Shown here: positions 4,183 to 29,573 of the stretch, piece after piece
Numbering within the stretch: position 1 is the first letter of the stretch
How the letters are laid out: each line of letters starts with the position of its first letter
DNA from: Parafrankia elaeagni
GTDB taxonomy: Bacteria; Actinomycetota; Actinomycetes; Frankiales; Frankiaceae
Reading direction: 5' to 3'
NCBI RefSeq assembly: GCF_000374165.1
Contig: NZ_KB893720.1
Location: forward strand, 47,468 to 111,467
DNA: 64,000 nucleotides
Made by a program: the position numbers and the translations under genes
Notes under the pieces: model-generated
What the model saw: the letters and a program-made list of their open reading frames with translations, nothing else
Told to the model about the DNA's origin: nothing
The model's database searches: none

Positions 4183-5240
4183 TCAAAAAGGGTTGTTCTG
4201 GCATTGGTCAGGTCGGGGGTGAGCGCCCGACCCTTGAAGATCGGAACGCGTAACAGGAGCCCGAACCCCGGAGCGTTACCGAAACGCCTGGCAAGGTACT
4301 GCTCGTTCCGCTCACGCAGGGCCGAGTCAGTGAGGCACCGCACCGCGCCGAGCACACCCTTGGCATAGACGCCGTTACAAATGGTCAGCGTTCGGTTCCC
4401 GTTGTAGGGATTACGAGCCCTGATCAGCAGCCCCACGTCCTCGACCAGGCCCAGGGCCGGGTCGTCGGACCAGCGCGGAAAGTACTTGCAGCAGTTCTCC
4501 CCCTCCTTGGTCTGGAATATCTCACCGTCCGGAAACTCCGGATCCTCGACCTGTTCGACCGGGAATCCGGCCTCCTGGATGAACCAGTCGGTTGCCTGGT
4601 TCCAGCCAAGACCGCCGAGCAGCACAAGATGGGCAGACAGGTCGTCCGGCACGATGTTCGCGGACTTCAGGAAGCGGACATCCGCGGACGGGTTCTCCGC
4701 GCGAATATGACCGAACAGCTCGACCAACGCGTCCACGTCCGCGTAGGAAAGTAGTTCGGTGTGGTTCAGGTGAAGAGACCCGGCGAGCTCTGACTGCTGC
4801 TCTCTCGGAATTTCTCCGCAGACGAGCCGGACCGGCTCGTTCCGGCCGAACAGCCAGGTTCGCCTTGCTGGCCGTATTTCGGGCACGCCGGGGTCCTCCT
4901 CCGGCGGGGAGGTCGACCGGAACTCGGACAGCTCGCCAAACAGCGCGTCACGCGCTTCCAGCTCCGCCGGCAGGAGCTCGCTCTCGTCGAACAGGCACGG
5001 TACCGGCCCAGCGATGGATCGCTCGACTGCGTAGAAGGCGGCGTATGCCGTCAGGCGTTCGAGGGGAACCGAGGTGGCCAGGTTCTCGTCCGAGGAGATC
5101 GTCGCGGTTGAGACACCCAGCGCCTGGGCGACTGCGGCCTGCGTGAGGCGCGCCCTGGGCCATGTCTCCTGCCGCAACCGGCGAAGTCTCCGAGCCAGTG
5201 CCCTGTTGGGCTGCGCCGCCACCCACCCCACCCTCTTCAC
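4173..5240 (-). CDS. XRE-type regulator with large C-terminal domain
   Basis: A 355-residue protein started at GTG 5240. Residues about 12-70 form a helix-turn-helix of XRE type (ARRLRRLRQE..., LTQAAVAQALGVSTATISSDE). The rest (about 120-355) is an unidentified domain beginning near the RTWLFGRNEPVRLVCGEIP region, with motifs DVRFLKSANI, LVLLGGLGWN and a Cys-Cys pair (ENCCKYF); it reads like a sensor or nucleotide-type binding domain similar to those seen in actinobacterial regulators of unknown ligand. The gene forms an operon with the downstream glycosyltransferase-like gene. The upstream region carries repeated TTC-N3-GAA sites, suggesting autoregulation. Confidence 0.6.
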   Translation of the reverse strand: MKRVGWVAAQPNRALARRLRRLRQETWPRARLTQAAVAQALGVSTATISSDENLATSVPLERLTAYAAFYAVERSIAGPVPCLFDESELLPAELEARDALFGELSEFRSTSPPEEDPGVPEIRPARRTWLFGRNEPVRLVCGEIPREQQSELAGSLHLNHTELLSYADVDALVELFGHIRAENPSADVRFLKSANIVPDDLSAHLVLLGGLGWNQATDWFIQEAGFPVEQVEDPEFPDGEIFQTKEGENCCKYFPRWSDDPALGLVEDVGLLIRARNPYNGNRTLTICNGVYAKGVLGAVRCLTDSALRERNEQYLARRFGNAPGFGLLLRVPIFKGRALTPDLTNARTTLFEWS

Positions 5241-9791: not shown

Positions 9792-10977
9792 CGCGAACCT
9801 CGTCTTGGATGGGGGTGCTCTGGGTAAGGGAGCGGACGCGCTGGACAGCGCGGGCCACCTGGTCCGCGGCGGTGCGGATCTCCTCGGGTGTCGTGGCGCG
9901 GCCCAGGCTGAAGCGCAGGCTCTCCCTGGCCTCGGCCGCGGTTCGGCCCATGGCCAGCAGGACGTGGGACGGAACATCCCCGCCGCCGCTGCAGGCCGAG
10001 CCGGCCGAGACCGCGACCTGCGGAAGGCAGGCCTGGACGTCGTCGGCACCCGCGCCGACGAAGCGGAGGTTGACGGTGTTCGGCAGCCTGGCCCGCACCG
10101 GGCCGTTCAGTTCGACGGCGCCGCGGCCGAGCCGCTCGACGAGCAGCTCGGTCAGCTGCGCCACCAGCGTGCGCTGGCGCCTGCCGTCGTCCGTCATCGA
10201 TGCGGCCGCGATGCGGGCGGCCGCGCCGAAGCCGGCGATCCCGGCGGTGTTGAGGGTGCCGGCCCGTCGGCCGCGTTCCTGCCCTCCCCCGTGCGCCCGC
10301 GGCGCGATGCGCGCCCAGGCGTCCCCCGACGCGACCAGCGCGCCGACGCCCTTGGGGCCGTACAGCTTGTGGGCGGACGCGACGGCCACATCGACGCCTG
10401 TCCGCTCGAGGCTGACCGGGATCCGCCCCAGGGCCTGGGTGACGTCGCTGAACAGCAGCGCGCCGGCGGAGTGCACGGGTTCGACCAGGGGCCGCAGGTC
10501 GTTCACGGCCCCGGTCTCGTTGTTGGCCGCCATCACCGCCACGAGCGCGACGTCGGGACCGAGCAGGCGGCGCAGGTCGTCGACGTCGATGGTGCCGTCG
10601 GAGTGGACGGCGATCCGCTCGGCGCGGGTGCCGGGCCCGGCCGCGGCCGCCGCGGCGGCGTCGGCGGCGCCGAGCACCGCGGGGTGCTCGGTCGCGCCGA
10701 CGAGCACGCGGTGCCGGTCGGGTCCGGCGGCGGCGAGCGCCCCGCCGATCGCCAGGTTCGCCGCCTCAGTGGCTCCGGAGGTGAACACGACGTCGCGGGC
10801 ACGCGCACCGGCGAGGGTGGCGACCTCCCGCCGGGCGCGCTCGACGATCCGGGTGACCTCCTGGCCCGGCCCGTGCCTGCTGGCCGGGTTGGCGAACTGG
10901 TCGGTGAACAGCGGAAGCATGACCTCGACCACGCGCGGGTCTACCGGGGTGGTCGCGTTGTGGTCGAGGTAGATCAT
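9745..10977 (-). CDS. nifS: NifS-type cysteine desulfurase
   Basis: A 410-residue PLP enzyme that takes sulfur from cysteine for Fe-S and cofactor assembly. It opens MIYLDHNATTPVD, has FTSGATEAANLAI, the PLP lysine in SAHKLYGPKGVG and the persulfide cysteine in VSAGSACSGGG. Its ATG overlaps the hesA stop (ATGA). The last 25 residues run on past the usual end and overlap korA. NifS and IscS cannot be separated on sequence alone; the nif context supports NifS. Confidence 0.9.
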   Translation of the reverse strand: MIYLDHNATTPVDPRVVEVMLPLFTDQFANPASRHGPGQEVTRIVERARREVATLAGARARDVVFTSGATEAANLAIGGALAAAGPDRHRVLVGATEHPAVLGAADAAAAAAAGPGTRAERIAVHSDGTIDVDDLRRLLGPDVALVAVMAANNETGAVNDLRPLVEPVHSAGALLFSDVTQALGRIPVSLERTGVDVAVASAHKLYGPKGVGALVASGDAWARIAPRAHGGGQERGRRAGTLNTAGIAGFGAAARIAAASMTDDGRRQRTLVAQLTELLVERLGRGAVELNGPVRARLPNTVNLRFVGAGADDVQACLPQVAVSAGSACSGGGDVPSHVLLAMGRTAAEARESLRFSLGRATTPEEIRTAADQVARAVQRVRSLTQSTPIQDEVRDDNRARTARPAGTPA

Positions 10978-11798
10978 GTGGACTCCTCGGCACCGGCACC
11001 GGCACCGGCACCGGTGTGCTCGGCGCAGGTCGGGCAGGCGGGGTCGCGCCGCACCCGCAGCGACTGGAAGTCCATGTCCCAGAGGTCGTACTGCAGCAGC
11101 CGGCCGCTGGCCGGCTCGCCGAACCGAGCGATGATTTTGATCGCCTCGGTCGCGGCGAGGCAGCCCGCCAGGCCGGAGACGGCTCCGAGAACCGTGAACC
11201 CCAGGGGCTCCCAGGACGGGTCGCCCTCGGTGAACACACAGCGCAGGCAGGGTGTCCCCGGCTCGACGACGAGCAGGTTGCCCTCGGTGGCGTTCATCGC
11301 GGCGATGACCGCCGGGGTCCGCGTCGCCACGCAGAGGTCGTTGAGCCGGTAGCGGTCGGGGAAGTTGTGGCGGGCGTCCACCACGACGTCCGCCTCGCCG
11401 ACGAGCTGGCCGAGCTCGGGGAGCTCGGCCAGCTCGCGGTCGAAGGTGACGATCTCGACGCCCGGGTGGTGCGCGCGCAGAGTCTGCTCCGCGCAGGCCA
11501 CCCGGGAGCCGCCGATCCACTCGGGCCGCATGAGGGTCTGCCGGTTGAGGTCGGGCTCCTCCAGCGGGCCCGGATGGACCAGGACCAGCCGACCGACCCC
11601 GGCGGCGGCGAGGTAGGTCGCCGCCGCCCCGCCGACACCACCGATCCCCGCCACCAGCACGGTCGCGCGGCGCAACCGCTCCTGGGCGGCCGGGCCGAAG
11701 CCCGGTATCCCGAGCTGGCGGTTGTAGCGGCCCAGCCGCGCCGCGGGGGCGGGCGCGGGCCGGACATCGCACGGGGTGACGATCATGCCGCTTTCCAT
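10974..11798 (-). CDS. hesA: HesA/MoeB/ThiF-family E1-like adenylyltransferase
   Basis: A 274-residue protein starting at ATG 11798, with AGGGAG just upstream; the frame is open much further but only as a shadow of the preceding gene. The ATP-binding loop is VLVAGIGGVGGAAATYLAAAG, followed by DLNRQTL and the adenylation-site region. Cysteines in PCLRC and the end pair CPTC fit a ThiF/MoeB-type zinc site, although the first pair is displaced. HesA is common in nif clusters of Frankia and cyanobacteria and is thought to help metallocluster synthesis, but its exact substrate is not settled. The C-terminus has a Gly-Ala run. Confidence 0.85.
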   Translation of the reverse strand: MESGMIVTPCDVRPAPAPAARLGRYNRQLGIPGFGPAAQERLRRATVLVAGIGGVGGAAATYLAAAGVGRLVLVHPGPLEEPDLNRQTLMRPEWIGGSRVACAEQTLRAHHPGVEIVTFDRELAELPELGQLVGEADVVVDARHNFPDRYRLNDLCVATRTPAVIAAMNATEGNLLVVEPGTPCLRCVFTEGDPSWEPLGFTVLGAVSGLAGCLAATEAIKIIARFGEPASGRLLQYDLWDMDFQSLRVRRDPACPTCAEHTGAGAGAGAEEST

Positions 11799-11866
11799 GA
11801 AGGCTCCCTGTGCTGGCGTGGTGTGGTCGGTCAGTCGGTCAGTCGGGGCGATCTGGTCGCGGGAGG

Positions 11867-12487
11867 TCAGGAGACGAGGGCGACGCGCCCGATCTCCGGC
11901 AGGTTCTCCTTGATCCGCTTCTCGATCACCGCGGTGACGGTGGCCGAGGCGCTGGAGCACCCGTTGCAGGCGCCGGTGAGGCGGATGTGCACCTCGGCGG
12001 TGCCGGGCTGCCCGTTGCCGGCGAGCACGGTGACGACCTGCACGTCGCCGCCGTCGCCCTGCAGGAACGGCCGGATCTCGGTGATGACGTCCTCGACCTG
12101 CGCGCGCAGCTGCGCGTCGGCCTCGGCCCGCTCGGGCTCGTCCGGCGTCCCGAAGCTGTTGCCGCAGCCACAGGAGCTGGAGGCGTTCGGGTTGGTGAAG
12201 GTGAAGCCGGAGGAGGTCAGCGACTCCACGTAGTCGATCCGCAGGCCACGGAGGTGACCGATCATCGAGTTGTGGATGAAGACGTCGAAGCCGTCCTCGT
12301 TGATGACGATGTCGTCGCTCTCCGCGCTCGGCGTCAGCGCCAGGGCGTAGGTGAAGCCGGAGCACCCGCCCGGGTTCACCCCGACCCGCAGGCCGAAGCC
12401 GGCCGTCTCGGAGCTGCCGCCGATCAGGGAGCGCACCTGCTGGCGGGCCCGCTCGGTCAGTTCGATGGTGCTCGGGGCGAGGGTCAT
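11867..12487 (-). CDS. IscA-Nfu fusion Fe-S carrier (NfuA/NifU-like)
   Basis: A 206-residue protein made of an A-type carrier domain (about 8-115) and a NifU C-terminal (Nfu) domain (about 125-206). The A-type half keeps its cysteines: GGCSGF and the late CGCG pair. The Nfu half has the CNGC pair in [11 protein letters not shown]. coli NfuA has the same order but a degenerate A-type half without the cysteines, so this protein may use both halves. It overlaps nifB by four bases and probably hands Fe-S clusters from NifS to NifB, NifH and NifEN. Frankia annotators usually call this gene nifU, but the N-terminal scaffold and the 2Fe domain of true NifU are missing. Confidence 0.85.
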
Positions 12488-19359: not shown

Positions 19360-20916
19360 TCAGCGCACGGCGTCGAAGCTATGGTCAGGACTGGTGCGGT
19401 CCAGCTCGTCCAGCACGGTGTTGACCAGCTGGGTGAGCAGGTGCAGCCCGCCCTCGTATCCCACGATCGGGAAGCGGTGCAGGTGGTGCCGGTCGAAGAT
19501 CGGGAACCCGACCCGCACCAGCGGGACGTTCGCCTCCCTGGAGATGTACTTCAGGTAGGTGCTGCCGATGAGCAGGTCGACCGGCTCGGTGAAGACCAGC
19601 GACCGCAGGTGCCACAGGTCCTTCTCCGGCCAGACGGTGGCCGCGTCGCCGAACTTGCTCGCCGCCAGCACCTTCTCCATGCGGGGCTTGAAGTCCTTGT
19701 CGGCGTTCGTGCTGAGCAGGTGCACCGGGACCATGCCGAGCTCGAGCACGAACCGGGTCAGGGCGATGACCAGGTCGGGGTCGCCCGCGATGGCGACCCG
19801 CTTGCCGTGAAGGTAGGCGTGCGAGTCGGTCAGGGCGTCGACCAGCCGGCCGCGCTCGACGGTGAGCTCGGCCGGGATCTCCAGGCCGGTGAGCCGGGCG
19901 ATCTCGGTCAGGAACTGGTCGGTGCCGCGGACCCCGATCGGGGTCTCCAGCACGACCGTGTCCTGCTTCCACACTTCCCTGATCAGTTCGACCGTCTTGC
20001 GGGTGGTCGTCGTCTGCAGGGCCACCGTGGCACGGCTGAACTTGGCCGTGGCGGCGTCCGCGAGGCGCGTGCCACCCGGGTAGAGGTCGTACTCGCCGGT
20101 GGCCGGCGAGTCGAGCGCGGCGGAGTGGTCGCCGAGGATCAGGGGGTCGACCCCCATCAGCTCGAGGATCCGCCGGTACTCGCGCAGGTTGCCGATGTAG
20201 GTCTCGAAACCGGGGATGATGCTCAGCCGAGGCTTCCCACCGGTCTCCGGCTCCTTGGCGTCCGGAGTCTTCGTCAGGTTCTCCAGAATGCCCTTGAGCA
20301 TGCTGTCGTACCCGGTCAGGTGCGATCCCACGAAACTCGGCGTGTGGGCGTACGGCACCGGGTAGTCCTGCGGGATCACCTCCTGCTCCTTCGCCGCGCC
20401 GATGTAGGCGAAGAGGTCCTCGCCGATGACCTCGGCCATGCAGGTGGTGCTGAGCGCGACCATCTTCGGCTTGTAGAGCGCGTTGGCGTTACCCAGCGCC
20501 TCGACCAGGTTGCTGAGACCGCCGAAGACCGCGGCGTCCTCGGTCATGGACGTGGAGGCCGCCGGGACGGGCTCCTTGAAGTGCCGGGCGAAGTGGCTGC
20601 GGAAGTAAGCAACGCAGCCCTGCGACCCGTGCACGATGGGCAGCGTGCCCTCGAACCCGAGGCCCGCGAGCACCGCGCCGAGCGGCTGGCAGGCCTTGGC
20701 CGGGTTGACGGTCAGCGCCTCCCGGGCGAAGTTCTTCTCCCGGTACTCCCAGCCGCGGGTCCACTCCAGAACCCGGGTGACCTCGGCGGCGTCGCTGCCG
20801 TTCTCGAACTCGCCCTTGCCCTCGAACTGCTTCTGGTAGACCTCGTCCTTGAACAGCTCGCTGTGGTCGAGGACCTTCAGCGGTATGTGACTACCTGTCT
20901 CGGGAGTTGTCGTCAC
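19360..20916 (-). CDS. nifK: NifK, nitrogenase MoFe protein beta chain
   Basis: A 518-residue protein. P-cluster ligands are in place: Cys76 ([12 protein letters not shown]), Cys101 ([15 protein letters not shown]) and Cys159 ([14 protein letters not shown]). The N-terminal extension and [18 protein letters not shown] opening are usual for Mo-nitrogenase beta chains. It lies 65 bases after nifD and ends just before a strong hairpin, consistent with a transcript covering nifHDK. Confidence 0.97.
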
Positions 20917-20981
20917 CGGACATCCTCCTTTCTACCGTGACTGATGACCACCGGCGGTCGCCGGCGGAGCCGATCTTCGGG

Positions 20982-22442
20982 TCAGAAGACCTCTCCAGCC
21001 TTGGACCAGGGGGTCTCCATGAGGTCCCAGGTCGGGCTGTTGATCGCGATGTCCATGTCGCGGGCGAAGACCGCGAAGCCGTCCACGCCGTGGTACGGCC
21101 CGGAGTAGTCCCAGGAGTGCATCTGGCGGAAGGGAATGCCCATCTTGTGGAAGACGTACTTCTCCTTGACGCCCGCACCCATGAGGTCCGGCTTCATCCG
21201 CTTGGCGAACTCCTCCAGCTCGAACGCCGTCGGGTCGTCGTAGAGAACGACGCCTTCCTTGAGCTCGGCGTACGTGCGGGTGTAGTCGTCCTTGTGCGCG
21301 AACTCGTAACCGGTGCCGACGACCTCCATGCCGAGGTCCTCGTAGGCGCCGATCGTGTGGCGGGGGCGCAGGCCGCCGACGGCGAGCATGACGCGCTTGC
21401 CGTCGAGGCGCGGCTTGAACGCCGCCGTGATCTCGTCGAAGCGCTTCTGGTAACGCGCGATCGCAGCCTCGGTCTTCGCCTGGATCGTCTCGTCGAACTT
21501 GGCCGCGATGGCCCGCATCGAGGTGATGATCTTCGTCGGGCCGAAGAAGTTGAACTCGATCCACGGAGTGCCGTAACGCTCCTCCATGGTGGTGCAGATG
21601 TAGTTCATGGAGCGGTAGCAGTGGATCAGGTTCAGCTTCGACAGGTGCGTCGAGGCCATCTCGTTCAGCGTGCCGTCACCGGACCACTGGGCGATGACCC
21701 GCAGGCCCATGTCCTCGAGAATCCGCCGCGAGGCCCAGGCGTCGCCGCCGATGTTGTAGTCGCCGATGAGCGCGACGTCGTACGGGGTCTCCTTGAACGA
21801 CTCGCCACCGGTGCCGAGCACGTGGTCACGGACGGCGTCGTTGGCGATGTGGTGCCCCAGGGACTGGGAGACACCGCGGAAGCCCTCGCAGCGGACCGGG
21901 ATGACCGGCTTCTCGAGCTTCTTCGTCGCGGTGCGGGCCACGGCCTCGATGTCGTCGCCGATCAGACCGATCGGGCACTCGGACTGAATCGACATGCCCT
22001 TGGCCAGCGGGAACAGCTCGTTGATCTCGTCGCAGACCTTCTCCAGCTTGGGGTCACCGCCGAAGACGATGTCCTTCTCCTGGAAGTCCGTGGTGATCTG
22101 CATCGCGGCGAAGTTGGTGACGCCCCAGGGGCCGCGGGCGTAGTTACGCCGGGTGGCCCAGGAGTACTGGCCGCAGCCGACGGGGCCGTGGCTGATGGTG
22201 ACCAGGTCCTTCACCGGACCCCACACCACGCCCTTGGAGCCGGCGTAGGCGCACCCGCGGATCGTCATGACTCCGGGGCGGGACTTGATGTTGGACTTGA
22301 CCTCGCACTCCTTCGACCCCTCGGGGTCGTTGGCCTTGATGTGCTTGGCCCGGAACTTGGCCGCCTTCGCGGGGTAGTGCGACAGGACTTCGGCGATCAT
22401 CGCCTCGGTCTCGGCCCGCGGCGGGGTCGGCGTCGTCGTCAT
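20982..22442 (-). CDS. nifD: NifD, nitrogenase MoFe protein alpha chain
   Basis: A 486-residue protein. All ligands can be read: P-cluster Cys64, Cys90 and Cys156, and FeMo-co ligands Cys275 ([10 protein letters not shown]) and His442 ([14 protein letters not shown]). The gene follows nifH by 44 bases. The absence of a VnfG/AnfG-like gene and the full nifENB set make this a molybdenum enzyme. Confidence 0.98.
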
Positions 22443-22486
22443 GATCGGGACCTCATCCTCGACGGTTTCAGAGCCGGTGATCGGAG

Positions 22487-24208
<1,722 letters not shown>

Positions 24209-24676: not shown

Positions 24677-26122
24677 TCAGGGCCCGGTGGTCACGAGGCG
24701 CGCGTGGCGTCCACCGGGCCCGGCCGCGGGTGCCGCAGTACCCCGCCCGGCCGGGAGGAACATCTTGTCCGCGGCCCGCGGGCCGTACGAGGCCAGGGTC
24801 ACCGGCGCCCCCAGTGCCGCCGCCACCCGATCGGGCCACTCCTCGGGCGCGACCCGCACGCCGGGCAGCGGCTCGGCCCGGGCCAGCCGCTCCGTGAGCG
24901 CCGCCTGCCGCTCCAGATCGCCGGGCGGCCCGGGCTCCAGCCGGCGCACGCATTCCCCGTCGATCCGGTAGCCGGGGCAGAACGCCAGCCGCAGCGGCAG
25001 CCGTGCGGCCACATCCAGATGGGTCAGGGCCACCGCGTCCACGCCACCCGCCGCGTCGACCGCGTACCGGTGCGCGACCGCGTCGAAGTGCCCCACCCGG
25101 AACCGCCCCTGCCACCTGCCGGTCCCGTTGTGGGCGTCCGGCAGCACCGCGGCCAGCTCGGCGTCCTGGGTCACCAGCGGGCCGGGCCCGTGCCGCGTCG
25201 TGTAACAGCGGACGACCCCGAGCCGCCGGGCCGCGCCGCGCAGACCCACCTCCGCCAGCAGCTCCTCGGCGTTGGCCGGTGTCGTCGTCGACCAGGTCGT
25301 GTACGGATGGAAGCCGTGCCACTCGTCGAGCAGCACGCCCTGCGCCCCCTCGAACACCACCGGCCCGCGGGCGCACAGCACACGCAGCCAGGAACCGTCC
25401 ACGATCCGCGCGGTCTGGCCGAAGGCGCGCAGGACCGCCACTACGTCCTCGACCTCCGGTACCGCCGGCAGCTCGTCCAGCGCACCGGGCCCTGCCAGCC
25501 TGCCCAGGCTGGTCAGCTCGGCGTTCGTCCAGTCGCGGAGCTCGTGCAGCCGGCGGCGCAGCCGGGACGGATTCACGGCCGCGCAGTCGGCGACCCGCGG
25601 CGCGGCATCGGGCCGGGCCTGCGCGTAGGAGACCGTCTCGCCGATCCCCATCCCGCACGATCCGTGCGCCCCCGCTCCGCGTGCCAGCTCGCGGGCCTGG
25701 TTCACCACCGCGTGGTAGGGCGTGGTGAGCAGGGCGTCGCCGTCGACCGTCAGCCGCCCGAACGGGTCGGGCACTCCCACTGACTCCAGGTGCGCGGCCT
25801 CCGCGACCAGCGCGAACGGGTCGACGAGCACGGTGCTGGCCAGGTGCGTCGCGCAGCCGGCGGTGAAGGAACCCGCGCCGAACTGGGCGAAGGTGTGATG
25901 CCGGCCGTCGTCGGTCACGACGTTGTGCGCCGCCTGGGCGCCGCCGTTGAAACGCACCACCGCCGGCACCCGCCCGGCGGCGGCCGCCCGGGCGCACAGC
26001 CAGTCGACCACCGTGCCCTTGCCCGCGTCGCCGAAACCGAGATCGGCGACGATGACGTGGTCGCCCGGCCCGGCCCCGTCCCCGTTCGGCCAGGTCACAG
26101 CGGATGTCCGCCCTGGTGCCAC
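24677..26122 (-). CDS. Divergent adenylosuccinate synthetase-like enzyme
   Basis: A 481-residue PurA-fold protein. Its GTP loop reads GFGDAGKGTVVDWL where normal PurA has GDEGKGK; the catalytic Asp (32) and the later His66 (NGGAQAAHNVV) are kept. EGAQGVLLDEWHGFHPYTTW, TGRWQGRFRVGHFDAVAHRYAV and ALTHLDVA align with the PurA blocks EGAQGTLLD, TGRPRR and TKLDVL but are altered. The IMP-binding segment is replaced by HGSCGMGIGETVS. So it probably joins an amino or other group to a modified purine nucleotide, rather than serving housekeeping AMP synthesis. It is the last gene of a four-gene operon with vWA, kinase-like and NrtR-like genes. Confidence 0.75.
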   Translation of the reverse strand: MAPGRTSAVTWPNGDGAGPGDHVIVADLGFGDAGKGTVVDWLCARAAAAGRVPAVVRFNGGAQAAHNVVTDDGRHHTFAQFGAGSFTAGCATHLASTVLVDPFALVAEAAHLESVGVPDPFGRLTVDGDALLTTPYHAVVNQARELARGAGAHGSCGMGIGETVSYAQARPDAAPRVADCAAVNPSRLRRRLHELRDWTNAELTSLGRLAGPGALDELPAVPEVEDVVAVLRAFGQTARIVDGSWLRVLCARGPVVFEGAQGVLLDEWHGFHPYTTWSTTTPANAEELLAEVGLRGAARRLGVVRCYTTRHGPGPLVTQDAELAAVLPDAHNGTGRWQGRFRVGHFDAVAHRYAVDAAGGVDAVALTHLDVAARLPLRLAFCPGYRIDGECVRRLEPGPPGDLERQAALTERLARAEPLPGVRVAPEEWPDRVAAALGAPVTLASYGPRAADKMFLPAGRGTAAPAAGPGGRHARLVTTGP

Positions 26123-26135
26123 AGCCTTCGTCCGC

Positions 26136-27152
26136 TCAGAGGCGGGCGATGCCGGGGCCGTCGGCCTCGGCTACCCGGGTGTTCAGCGCGCGGGCGCCGC
26201 GGGCGACCACGGCACGGGTGTTGCGGGAGGTGGCGGTGCGGGCGTACCGGGCCAGTGCCCGCCCGACGCTGGGTGCCGCCCGCTGCGCGCCGACGTCCCG
26301 CAGGTGGTCGAGCCCTGCGTCGAGGTCGATGGACCCCTCGTTGATCCCGATGGTCAGCGCGATCGTCTCGCACACGGCGTCGAGGTCGTCCAGCTCCAGC
26401 ACCCGCTCGCCGAGCAGCCCGCGCCAGGTGCCGATCACCTCCCGGTCACCGGCGTAGGACGTCCCGGCCGGCAGAATGAAGTACACGTTGTAGCGACGCT
26501 CCAGCTCGGCGACGATCTGCTCGACCGGGATGCTCTCCGCCAGCTGGTCGCCGACCACGGCCGCGACCTGGCTCGGCATCACCCGGTTGTAGGGCAGCTC
26601 GTCGCCGACGATGAACAGGTAGCCCCGCTGGCCGCGCCGCTCGAAACAGTCCGTCGAGGTGTGGCGGGCCATGAAGTACATCGCCAGCTCGTAGGACTCG
26701 TGTTTCTGGCCGCCGCCGCCGCCCTCGAGCATCATCGCGCCGAGCTGGTCGTCCATCCGGTTGTCCGACTCGAACTGGCCGACCTGCAGGGGAACCCGGT
26801 CGCAGGTCGCGTCCCCGATGCCGCCGAAGAGGATCTGCGGATGCCGCGCATAGCCCTTGCGCAGCAGCAGTCCGTGCAGCTCCGGCAGCCGGGTCTGCAG
26901 GGTGCGCGGGACCTGGCCCATCGACCCCGTCACGTCGAACAGGACAGCGATGGCCAGGCTGTCGGGATGGTCCTCGCTGTCCCGGCTCTCCCGGGCTGTG
27001 ACCAGCCACGGGTCCAGGTCGGGGTGCGCCTTCCAGCTGCGCCGGCTGCTCGCCCGCATCGAGTCGCTGTACTCGAACGCGCTCGCCCCGCTGCGGGCAC
27101 GGTAGCCCGCGGCCGCCGCGTACACGTCGGTCGACCAGTAGCCGCTGCCCAT
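26136..27152 (-). CDS. vWA domain protein
   Basis: A 338-residue soluble protein with a von Willebrand A domain from about 60 to 270. The metal-site motif reads DVTGSMGQVP (canonical DxSxS has T-G-S here), with a downstream GIGDA and GDELPYN giving the other acidic ligands. MLEGGGGGQKHESYELAMYF is a striking glycine loop. vWA proteins of this kind pair with kinases and phosphatases in stress-response modules such as the TerY systems. The gene is 13 bases from the PurA-like gene. No membrane segment. Confidence 0.85.
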   Translation of the reverse strand: MGSGYWSTDVYAAAAGYRARSGASAFEYSDSMRASSRRSWKAHPDLDPWLVTARESRDSEDHPDSLAIAVLFDVTGSMGQVPRTLQTRLPELHGLLLRKGYARHPQILFGGIGDATCDRVPLQVGQFESDNRMDDQLGAMMLEGGGGGQKHESYELAMYFMARHTSTDCFERRGQRGYLFIVGDELPYNRVMPSQVAAVVGDQLAESIPVEQIVAELERRYNVYFILPAGTSYAGDREVIGTWRGLLGERVLELDDLDAVCETIALTIGINEGSIDLDAGLDHLRDVGAQRAAPSVGRALARYARTATSRNTRAVVARGARALNTRVAEADGPGIARL

Positions 27153-27200
27153 GGTGTCTCTCCCGCCTTCCCGGAACGGATCCGGTTCTCGTCAGTGATC

Positions 27201-27289
27201 GTCGGTTTCTTCGGTGGCCGTCGGTTTCCTCGGTGGCCGTCGGCTTCCTCGTCGGCCGACGGCTTCCTCGTCGGCCGACGGCTCACGCC
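27201..27289. repeat. 19-base tandem repeat between kinase-like and vWA genes
   Basis: Four units start at 27201, 27220, 27239 and 27258, with a partial fifth at 27277. The unit is close to GTCGGTTTCCTCGGTGGCC. The last unit runs into the stop codon of the kinase-like gene. The copies differ slightly, as in a decaying minisatellite, and the repeat fills much of the 130-base gap before the vWA start. Confidence 0.8.
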
Positions 27290-28479
27290 GGGCTTCCCGC
27301 CGGCAGGGGTGGGAGGCGGAACGTTCTGAAGCGACGCGGTCCGAACAGTCGTTCCAGCAACTCGTCCAGCTCGCCGAGCAGCCGCCAGGCGTCATGCGGC
27401 CGGCGCGCGGCGGCCTGCCGGGTGCAGCCCTGCGCGAACCGCCGCAGCGGAACCGGGACGTCCGGTCCGAGCAGGAAGGTCATGCAGCGGGTGGCGAGAT
27501 AGATGTCCGTCGCCTCGTCGGGCGGCTGCCGCGCCGGCACCTCCGGCGGGTACATCTGCTCGAAGCCCGGGACGACGGCCGGCACCCGGGCCCCGCTCAC
27601 CCCGGTGCCGCCACCCCGGACAACGCTGTAGCACCAGTCGACCAGCACGAGTCCGTGCAGGTCAGGGTGGATGAGGATGTGGTCGGGGACGACAGCGCCG
27701 TGCAGCACCCCGGCGCGGTGGGCGTAGCCGAGGGCCACCAGCAGCCGGCGCCACATCCAGGCGACGTCCCGCGGGTCGACCCCCTGCGGGTAGGCGGCGC
27801 GGATCCGGCTGAGCGAGCAGAAACCGTCGAGCCGCCCGAGGGCGTTGACCCGCCGCGCTCCGGCTGTGCCCGCCGCGGCCTCATCCCCGGGGGCGTGCAG
27901 GAACGACTCGACCAGCCGGGGCGCGTAGGCGGCGAAACGCCGGTCGCCCTGGCGGGCGAGCCGACCCAGCGCGGCCGCCTCCCGCTCCATCAGATCGTTG
28001 TCCGCACCGGAACGCGGGATCTTGAGCAGCACCTCGTGGGCCGCTCCGCCCACGACCGACCGGCATTCGGCCGGGTGCAGGCGGGCTACGTCACCTTCGA
28101 CGACGGACCCGGCGGCCCCGGCGGACCCGGCGGACCCACCTACGGGCCCGTCCGGCCCCTGGGCCGCGCGGCGGCGCGACGTCCGCAACGTGTACGTGTG
28201 ACGCCCGGTACGAAGGACTGCCGTCCCGTCCCCGTCGTCCTCGAGCTGCTGGTAGCGAGTCCACAGCTCACCGAGCCGGACGAACCCGTCGGTCGCGGCA
28301 CCCGCGCTGCCCGCCGGCGCCCGGTCGGGATGCACCAGCCGGGCCAGCCGCCGGTAGCCTCCCACCCCTGGCGTGGGCCCGAACAACCCGACGAGATCCT
28401 CCCGCCCGGCCGTCGCCGGTACGTCCCTCAGCAGGCGCAACACGTCGTCGAGGCTGGCCGGGACGGCAGGCTCAGGCAT
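27283..28479 (-). CDS. J-domain plus kinase-like fold protein
   Basis: A 398-residue protein whose ATG at 28479 overlaps the NrtR-like stop. Residues about 10-75 look like a DnaJ J-domain (YRRLARLVHPDRAP with the HPD motif). From about 150 comes a kinase fold: EVLLKIPR (the lysine), YAHRAGVLHGAVVPDHILI in place of the HRD catalytic loop, and VLVDW in place of DFG. The HRD Asp is missing, so it is probably a pseudokinase or has a changed mechanism; the DFG-type Asp and beta3 Lys remain. A J-domain joined to a kinase fold suggests recruitment of a DnaK chaperone to a signalling or regulated target. Confidence 0.75.
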   Translation of the reverse strand: MPEPAVPASLDDVLRLLRDVPATAGREDLVGLFGPTPGVGGYRRLARLVHPDRAPAGSAGAATDGFVRLGELWTRYQQLEDDGDGTAVLRTGRHTYTLRTSRRRAAQGPDGPVGGSAGSAGAAGSVVEGDVARLHPAECRSVVGGAAHEVLLKIPRSGADNDLMEREAAALGRLARQGDRRFAAYAPRLVESFLHAPGDEAAAGTAGARRVNALGRLDGFCSLSRIRAAYPQGVDPRDVAWMWRRLLVALGYAHRAGVLHGAVVPDHILIHPDLHGLVLVDWCYSVVRGGGTGVSGARVPAVVPGFEQMYPPEVPARQPPDEATDIYLATRCMTFLLGPDVPVPLRRFAQGCTRQAAARRPHDAWRLLGELDELLERLFGPRRFRTFRLPPLPAGSPA

Positions 28480-29440
28480 CGCCCGCACCGCCCGCTTCGG
28501 GCCCGGACGGCCGCAGCAGCGCCGGGTACAGCAGCTTCGCGGGCCCCGCCCGGTACAGCCGGGCCCGGCGCCCGCCGCGGCTGCCACCGCGTTCGGTGGT
28601 GGTCCCGGTGTCCTCCAGGAAGCCCGGCACCGACAGGACCTTGCGGTGGAAGTTCGCGGCGTGCGGCGGCCGGCCCCAGACCGTGGTGTAGACCTCACGC
28701 AGCTCGGTGATGGTGAACTGTTCGCCGACGAACGCTGTCGCCAGCGGCGTGTACTCGATCTTCGATCGGGCCCGCTCGACCCCGTCGGCGAGGATCCGAC
28801 CGTGGTCGAAGGCCAGATCACCCGGCAGCACGGCGTCGAACGCCACGTCACCGACCACGGAGGTGTCGAACGCCACGCCGCCCGACCCGGTCGCCAGCGG
28901 CAGCCAGGCGGCCGCCGCCGCGTCGCCGCCCGCGGTCGGGTCCGGCAGGTCCGGCGCGAAGGCGAGATAGGCGACCGAGATCACCCGCATCCGCGGGTCC
29001 CGGCCCGGGGTGCCGTAGGTGCCGAGCTGCTCCAGGTGCACCCGCGTCGATCCGGCGGGCCGGACAGCACCCGGTTCGTCGGGTGGTTCGTCGGGAAGTC
29101 CGTCGGGAAGTCCGTCGGGTGGCCGCGCGTCGGCCTCCACCGCTGTCAGCCCGGTCTCCTCGACCAGCTCACGGGCCGCGGCCTCGGGAAGATCCTCCTC
29201 GAGGGAATGCCCTGCCCCGCCCGGGCGCGGGCGGACGAACCCGCCGGGCAGTGCCCAGCGGCCCGCGAAGGGCTCCTCGCCCCGGCGCACGAGCAGGACG
29301 TGCAGTCTCCGCTCCCGCATCGTCAGCGCCACGACATCCACCGTCACCGCGACCGGGTCGAAAGCCCGCGGGTCATAGGTGCTCGGGTCGTACCCGCCGC
29401 CCGCCCGCGGACGGGTCGGTCCGGCCTCGACCTCCGGCAT
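28472..29440 (-). CDS. NrtR-like Nudix transcriptional regulator
   Basis: A 322-residue protein with a Nudix domain (about 30-180) and a winged helix (about 225-310). The Nudix box is GHSLEED...AAARELVEETGL, close to canonical GX5EX7REUXEEXGU. The C-terminal part (YTPLATAFVGEQFTITELREVYTTVW, then NFHRKVLSVPGFLEDTG) is characteristic of NrtR, whose members bind ADP-ribose-type NAD metabolites and repress NAD-linked genes. The insertion PDGLPDGLPDEPPDEP is low-complexity. It is the first gene of its operon and probably regulates it. Confidence 0.85.
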   Translation of the reverse strand: MPEVEAGPTRPRAGGGYDPSTYDPRAFDPVAVTVDVVALTMRERRLHVLLVRRGEEPFAGRWALPGGFVRPRPGGAGHSLEEDLPEAAARELVEETGLTAVEADARPPDGLPDGLPDEPPDEPGAVRPAGSTRVHLEQLGTYGTPGRDPRMRVISVAYLAFAPDLPDPTAGGDAAAAAWLPLATGSGGVAFDTSVVGDVAFDAVLPGDLAFDHGRILADGVERARSKIEYTPLATAFVGEQFTITELREVYTTVWGRPPHAANFHRKVLSVPGFLEDTGTTTERGGSRGGRRARLYRAGPAKLLYPALLRPSGPEAGGAGDA

Positions 29441-29536: not shown

Positions 29537-29573
29537 TCATCTCATTACGAGATTTTCTAGATGTGAGATTAAC
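29537..29573. promoter_or_regulatory. AT-rich operator candidate before the NrtR-like operon
   Basis: A 37-base island of low GC in very GC-rich sequence. It contains TCTCATTACGAGA (TCTC/GAGA palindrome), TCTAGA, and two ATCTCA/TGAGAT arms about 29 bases apart. It is about 100 bases upstream of the NrtR-like start and about 135 bases upstream of the plus-strand metallopeptidase gene, so it could control both. Confidence 0.5.

Follow-up and report, generated by a model that had tools for sequence, protein, structure and literature searches.

Adenylosuccinate synthetase (PurA) binds aspartate through the arginine residues R131, R303 and R305 and the phosphate of inosine monophosphate (IMP) through R143, and PurZ is a phage relative of PurA that produces a modified nucleotide. 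Regulators of the NrtR family control nicotinamide adenine dinucleotide (NAD) genes in response to adenosine diphosphate (ADP)-ribose. In the systems centred on ADP-ribosylglycohydrolase (ARG), a Nudix transcription factor and a von Willebrand factor A (vWA) chaperone are found in one locus, as described in PMC9503650. Here we analyse a four-gene operon of Parafrankia elaeagni that encodes an NrtR-like regulator, a J-domain pseudokinase, a vWA protein and a PurA-like protein. It lies in a stretch of 64,000 nucleotides, hereafter the window (contig NZ_KB893720.1, positions 47,468 to 111,467). An earlier note made from the letters of this DNA had singled out the four genes as a candidate system. 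As it had said, all four open reading frames (ORFs) are on one strand, here the minus strand (24677-29440), 13 bases separate the vWA gene from the PurA-like one, and the regulator and J-domain genes overlap, by 8 bases once the start of gene 2 is set at 28479. The listed ORF of gene 2 (27283-28851) is too long, and the conserved start is the ATG at 28479, where the J-domain of the family begins. The features are:

28472..29440, minus strand: gene 1, NrtR-like regulator, Nudix domain and winged helix, with the Nudix motif RELxEETG
27283..28479, minus strand: gene 2, J-domain and pseudokinase, start corrected from 28851
26136..27152, minus strand: gene 3, vWA protein with the DVTGSM motif and a Met-Gly N-terminus
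24677..26122, minus strand: gene 4, putative PurA-like ligase with a remodelled aspartate loop; the true start may be slightly downstream
29555..29569, no strand: first and weaker dyad of a tandem operator, ATCTCACATCTAGAA
29539..29553, no strand: second dyad of the tandem operator, ATCTCGTAATGAGAT, the sole exact WTCTCRNNNYGAGAW palindrome in the Parafrankia genome

We tentatively propose that a PurA-derived enzyme activates a purine with guanosine triphosphate (GTP) and joins it to an amine other than aspartate, the likeliest being the N-terminal glycine of the vWA protein, with the J-domain pseudokinase as a helper and the Nudix protein as a repressor. A fuller version, which we consider doubtful, would be a protein-purine conjugation onto this glycine, tended by the pseudokinase, of a kind found in large phages and acquired by actinobacteria, which put it under their own Nudix repressor.

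The earlier note had suggested a search for the gene order in actinobacteria, and this order turned out to be conserved. Among the 80 best-scoring of 525 genome stretches that encode a relative of the vWA protein (the named-genome loci), 63 have the full order regulator, kinase, vWA and PurA-like gene. No kinase was detected in 11 others and the last 6 have fewer genes, four of them (L062, L069, L115 and L123) lying some 300 bases or less from where a contig ends and the other two (L083 and L114) having about 1.2 kb of sequence ahead of the vWA gene. The same order was found in 24 of 28 wide loci, with the regulator after the PurA-like gene in two, no regulator in one and no kinase in one; these were drawn from 28 of the 41 vWA-positive genomes of the window's class, and some genomes are in both sets. 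This order is far beyond chance. Since the flanking genes of the wide loci are common within a genus and mostly differ between genera, the four genes are the unit. Moreover, the vWA protein (E<=1e-10) is present in 41 of 394 class genomes and the PurA-like family profile, cut at E 1e-90, also finds 41, and these are the identical genomes. In a phylum-wide sample, the vWA protein was found in only 2 of 396 genomes, both from the window's class. The named locus nearest to that of the window is in P. colletiae (99% identity of the vWA protein). One of the 24 ordered wide loci (L055, genome G132) is decayed: its kinase and the first half of its vWA gene are broken, and the regulator and PurA-like matches remain. 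It was dropped from one conservation count and, together with a wrongly cut kinase (L050), from the family profiles.

Gene 4 matches the Pfam profile Adenylsucc_synt (PF00709), and its predicted fold agrees with that of PurA. By comparing 54 variants of this family with 12 canonical PurA proteins, we found that the catalytic residues Asp13, His41 and Gln224 are each kept in 54 of 54 variants. R303 is missing and the R305 position is hydrophobic in all 54, with Arg at both positions in 12 of 12 canonical proteins. At the position of R131, the variants have M (25), V (10), L (5), K (4), I (3) or T (2), with 5 not printed, and the canonical proteins R (8) or K (4). The variant PurA that the earlier note had described is borne out, with the P-loop region and the catalytic Asp kept, two aspartate-binding arginines lost and a third mostly replaced, and residues that are not those of the ordinary enzyme. 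Entries for PurA mutants titled R303L, R143L and K16Q are found in the PDB, and a literature search on the PurA arginines gave no result. Two known identities were tried for gene 4 and rejected: ordinary PurA, by the score of 172.5 bits with the NCBIfam equivalog NF002223 (below its cut-off of 402) and the loss of aspartate-binding Arg, and PurZ, by the score of 39.9 bits with the NCBIfam PurZ model (below its cut-off of 300) and the retained catalytic Asp, with no Ser there. Judged from its residues, gene 4 does not encode an ordinary adenylosuccinate synthetase.

Pfam gives no vWA match for gene 3, and the PDB has no sequence relative; the gene was called vWA from its DVTGSM motif, which is of the metal ion-dependent adhesion site type (DxSxS/DxTxS) and is found in 124 of 126 vWA relatives. 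The earlier note had overlooked its N-terminus, which is almost invariantly Met-Gly. With start codons picked by a single rule in all four families, near position 1 of the hidden Markov model, 192 of 193 distinct vWA N-termini (236 loci) have Gly as residue 2. The sole other one, L277, is probably an error of start choice, an in-frame I-GGGTF being found further down. In the other families, the commonest residue 2 reaches 56 of 142 (kinase), 30 of 191 (PurA-like) and 19 of 104 (regulator), and the background of Gly at residue 2 is 72 of 646 called genes of the viral and the named phage and plasmid loci. Also, 83 loci (37 distinct first heptamers) have no alternative start between the upstream stop and the Met, and all 83 are Met-Gly. 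In 56 aligned vWA proteins, that of the window and 55 taken from 80 diverse rows (several rows whose start was unclear were left out), this glycine is among just 12 invariant columns, down to 27% identity. Of the 193 N-termini, 163 have S or G as residue 3, 180 have G or S as residue 4 and 189 have an aromatic residue 6.

The catalytic, binding and regulatory steps that we infer would run as follows. With GTP, the PurA-like enzyme would activate a purine nucleotide (IMP or a close relative) at its C6 oxygen, and the activated purine would be joined to an amine other than L-aspartate. The likeliest amine would be the free N-terminal Gly of the vWA protein, bared by methionine aminopeptidase cutting Met1, which would give a protein-purine conjugate; as a fallback, the acceptor would be another non-aspartate amine. 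Met removal leaves a free N-terminal glycine, that is an alpha-amine without the side-chain carboxylate that aspartate-binding Arg would hold. We propose the vWA N-terminus as acceptor because of this free alpha-amine without carboxylate, the Arg loss and the fact that the vWA and PurA-like genes are constantly paired. The J-domain pseudokinase would bind nucleotide without phosphotransfer, and would probably bring DnaK/Hsp70 to the vWA protein for its loading, remodelling or release. Bacteria would keep the operon off through its own Nudix repressor, bound at the tandem operator as long as no nucleotide-like ligand (ADP-ribose or a relative) is present. Phages usually carry the effector genes without the regulator.

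The Pfam matches of gene 2 itself are weak (DnaJ at E 0.07 and Pkinase at E 0.48, none at E<=0.01), but of the 45 members of its family, 23 match DnaJ and 24 match Pkinase at E<=0.01. Among these 45 aligned proteins, H, P and D of the J-domain HPD motif are each kept in 39, and the HRD Asp is found in none (A in 41, S in 2, N and G in 1 each). The VAIK Lys is kept in 45, the alpha-C Glu in 44 and the DFG Asp in 37, with Gly in the other 8. The J-domain pseudokinase that had been noticed in the window is supported, its DnaJ and kinase matches being clear in the family, and gene 2, with its J-domain ahead of a kinase fold, is best read as a nucleotide-binding pseudokinase that could call on Hsp70.

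Pfam matches both NUDIX (E 4e-15) and NrtR_WHD (E 2e-12) in gene 1, as expected from the NrtR-like regulator first noticed there, and 71 of 80 relatives have the Nudix motif RELxEETG. With the NCBIfam model NF050029 (ADPR responsive repressor), gene 1 scores 87 bits, below the equivalog cut-off of 400. We searched 84 upstream regions, those with a recognisable regulator start from up to 109 loci (some genomes twice), and a TTCTC-N5-GAGAA motif has a best match of 9 or 10 out of 10 positions in 68 of them, with an average of 0.3 in shuffled sets. The exact WTCTCRNNNYGAGAW palindrome occurs once in the 7.59 Mb genome of the window, 98 bases ahead of the start codon of gene 1. Because this single exact site is at the operon, the regulator looks like a local repressor in this genome, counting exact sites and setting degenerate ones aside. 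In 12 genomes chosen for having the system, there are 24 exact palindromes, 12 of them at the operon by position. As to the ligand, ADP-ribose is a lead, by analogy with the NrtR family.

The earlier note had also missed that phages carry the three effector genes. Matches to the vWA protein in the phage collection come from 208 records (189 Mycobacterium phages, 10 Rhizobium, 6 Vibrio and 3 others) and those to the PurA-like protein from 223, again with 189 Mycobacterium phages, some of the remaining ones looking like ordinary bacterial PurA. Phage Gizmo (Bixzunavirus) has a kinase (gp267), a vWA protein (gp268), gp269 and a PurA-like protein (gp270), and its gp267 has a J-domain match too, with HGA where HRD is expected. 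Viral contigs were queried with the vWA and the PurA-like protein, which gave two overlapping sets of loci. With the vWA query, 46 loci were found, 43 with a PurA-like gene and 35 with a kinase; the regulator profile matches 4 of them, one of which (L155) shows a Nudix domain without winged helix in Pfam. With the PurA-like query, 80 of 480 loci were kept; in 77 of them a vWA gene lies no more than 4.5 kb away on the strand of the PurA-like gene, and the three others have only 864, 190 and 3 bases ahead of the PurA-like frame before the contig ends. Two viral contigs (L185 and L186) have kinase and vWA-like matches and no PurA-like gene detected, the vWA match of L185 being fragmented. In C1 mycobacteriophages (e.g. 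hits H31 and H37), the vWA match falls into two parts that together span about 1.66 kb, where 0.9 kb is usual, and PMC9476963 lists an HNH endonuclease gene beside the kinase there; the vWA gene probably has an intein or homing insertion. In Vibrio phage VB_VaC_TDDLMA (L188), a NADAR gene and a TROVE/Ro60-like gene (4468-5115, 10368-11876) flank the vWA and PurA-like genes.

Plasmids carry the kinase-like, vWA and PurA-like genes in a row as well, with a Nudix gene downstream in Rhodococcus and Tsukamurella and a divergent Nudix/NrtR-like match upstream in Allorhizobium and Acetobacter (one record each). A Variovorax plasmid has the three genes and no regulator match. On the Allorhizobium plasmid pAtS4e (L195), the module lies between a VgrG gene and a set of AAA, DUF5682 and DUF4132 genes. 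We also built a quick tree of the 54 variant and 12 canonical PurA proteins, without PurZ, with Shimodaira-Hasegawa-like approximate likelihood ratio test (SH-aLRT) support only and long phage branches flagged. All variants are on one side of a branch with support 100, apart from the 12 canonical proteins, and 16 bacterial, 2 plasmid and 3 phage rows are nested (support 97) within otherwise mostly phage diversity. Because of this nesting, the tree, quick and with long branches as it is, suggests a phage-borne module taken up by bacteria.

Several observations weigh against the proposed conjugation. Lys is at the R131 position in 4 of 54 variants, and likewise in 4 of 12 canonical proteins. The alignment of the aspartate loop is ambiguous: R303 corresponds to G in 50 and R in 2 of 61 sequences in one alignment, and is deleted in 54 of 54 variants in the other. 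By the residues, the Arg losses exclude the usual aspartate pocket and do not name a new amine. Also, R143 is kept in only 30 of 54 variants, and because this residue binds the IMP phosphate in PurA, the nucleotide substrate itself may differ. On the side of the vWA protein, the start rule favours Met at position 1 (it does not favour Gly after it), rows with unclear starts are absent from the alignment in which Gly2 is invariant, and Gly2 could be structural, or part of a docking or pseudo-substrate tail. The kinase was detected in 67 of 80 named-genome loci and in 56 of 80 viral PurA-like loci. As for the operator, the motif was found and scored on the same sequences, the best match of the window itself is 8 of 10, a score reached by about 5 of 84 shuffled regions, and the remaining 12 of the 24 exact palindromes are away from the operon, with 6 in all for a reversed control pattern.

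Some of these observations would suit other explanations. It is possible, if somewhat doubtful, that the PurA-like enzyme makes a modified nucleotide, in which a small-molecule amine or a non-aspartate amino acid is linked to a purine nucleotide, and that the vWA protein and J-domain pseudokinase are its chaperone or scaffold and Gly2 a structural residue. Catalytic residues that are retained and aspartate-binding Arg residues that are lost or replaced are consistent with such a product, for which PurZ is a precedent. However, this leaves unexplained both the conservation of the vWA N-terminal Gly and why the vWA protein, and not the kinase, is the constant partner. That the enzyme has no ligase activity and is a GTP-regulated scaffold or sensor is quite unlikely: the altered residues of the substrate site speak for it, but the catalytic residues are retained (Asp in 60, Lys, His and Gln in 61 each) in an alignment of 61 sequences (60 of 64 diverse rows and that of the window). 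A spare ordinary adenylosuccinate synthetase that boosts the supply of adenosine monophosphate is highly improbable, given that R303 is missing and R305 hydrophobic in 54 of 54 variants, that these form a clade apart from the 12 canonical PurA (support 100), and that the window genome has its own, separate purA (614 bits, versus 215 for gene 4).

The earlier note had tied the operon to NAD or ADP-ribose status, and there is some context of this kind, a few phage loci having NAMPT, NrtR-type or NADAR genes close to the module. An unlikely explanation drawn from it is an NAD/ADP-ribose defence or counter-defence, in which the enzyme would repair, remove or add a group on an ADP-ribosylated or NAD-derived purine and the Nudix regulator would do the sensing. 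The Nudix/NrtR-type regulator that bacteria have, and that accompanies the module on plasmids, points this way. So does a NAMPT-type gene that lies 8 kb or less from the vWA gene in 5 of 46 viral loci (BLAST clusters, with a Pfam check on L153; L153 and L174 are near-identical). An NrtR-type gene is in 3 of these 5 loci (Pfam check on L153), and the NADAR gene of the Vibrio phage is one gene away from its vWA gene. However, in the remaining 41 of the 46 loci the clustering shows no NAMPT-type gene close to the module, the exact palindrome of the regulator is only at the operon in the window genome, and a NAPRTase-family match is found anywhere in 10 of 46 viral records, counts that have no matched large-phage control and make the NAD genes near phage modules suggestive only.

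In the window, nifK-, nifD- and nifH-like genes (19360-23401, minus strand; Pfam Oxidored_nitro twice and Fer4_NifH) lie 1.3 kb downstream of the operon. Among the wide loci, clustering finds such nif neighbours only in the three of Parafrankia type (L033-L035).

Widespread in actinobacteria, with 525 stretches encoding a vWA relative, the module also occurs on plasmids and in many large phages, among them the Bixzunavirus group. If the conjugation is true, a purine on a protein N-terminus would be a new kind of post-translational modification; if a new nucleotide is the product, it would be a new metabolite common to phages and bacteria. With either chemistry, the enzyme and its partner are directly testable. 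The four genes had been taken for an undescribed system, which agrees with their conserved order and with our search of open-licence PubMed Central (PMC) literature, where no description of the gene set was found. Existing annotations of the module proteins read adenylosuccinate synthetase, kinase and hypothetical. A PurA-like gene is merely listed in the parts of PMC9476963 and PMC11468179 that bear on it. The systems of PMC7159879 and PMC7824862 were rejected as a match, the terms PurA and adenylosuccinate being in neither main text. With PADLOC 2.0.0, there was no match for the vWA or PurA-like protein, and genes 1 and 2 gave only weak matches, to kinase domains (gene 2, best E 2.7e-7, 27 bits) and to Nudix (gene 1, E 0.01).

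Compared with known systems, the phage PurA-like, vWA and kinase proteins match PHROG families 1211, 2971 and 3043, which are separate families there, the vWA one without function. In PHROG 1211 and RefSeq phage records, the PurA-like protein is called "2-aminooxy adenylosuccinate synthetase", and annotation transfer may account for the spread of this name. With PurA (PF00709), the variants share the fold, the P-loop region and Asp13, His41, Gln224, Thr239 and Asp333, whereas most or all of the 54 have N38 changed to Q, T129 to C, V273 to H and K331 to H or C, and the aspartate loop TTGRxR changed to WQGxF, and they form a separate clade. PurZ of phiVC8 (DgsS, succinoaminodeoxyadenylate synthase; 343 aa) differs in having no catalytic Asp (GST for GDE), in being without the motifs NGGAQ, TRHG and WQG that mark the variant family, and in having no adjacent gene named vWA (by annotation only, no profile search). 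The Nudix and NrtR_WHD domains are those of NrtR repressors, but the operon holds no NAD biosynthesis gene and the exact operator palindrome occurs once in the window genome. As in the ARG-centred systems, which came closest in the literature search, a Nudix regulator and a vWA protein share the locus; the core enzyme is PurA-like and not the ADP-ribosylglycohydrolase described in PMC9503650, whose main text has neither PurA nor adenylosuccinate by term search. We regard the system as new in its combination of parts with known folds, with a chemistry that is still a proposal.

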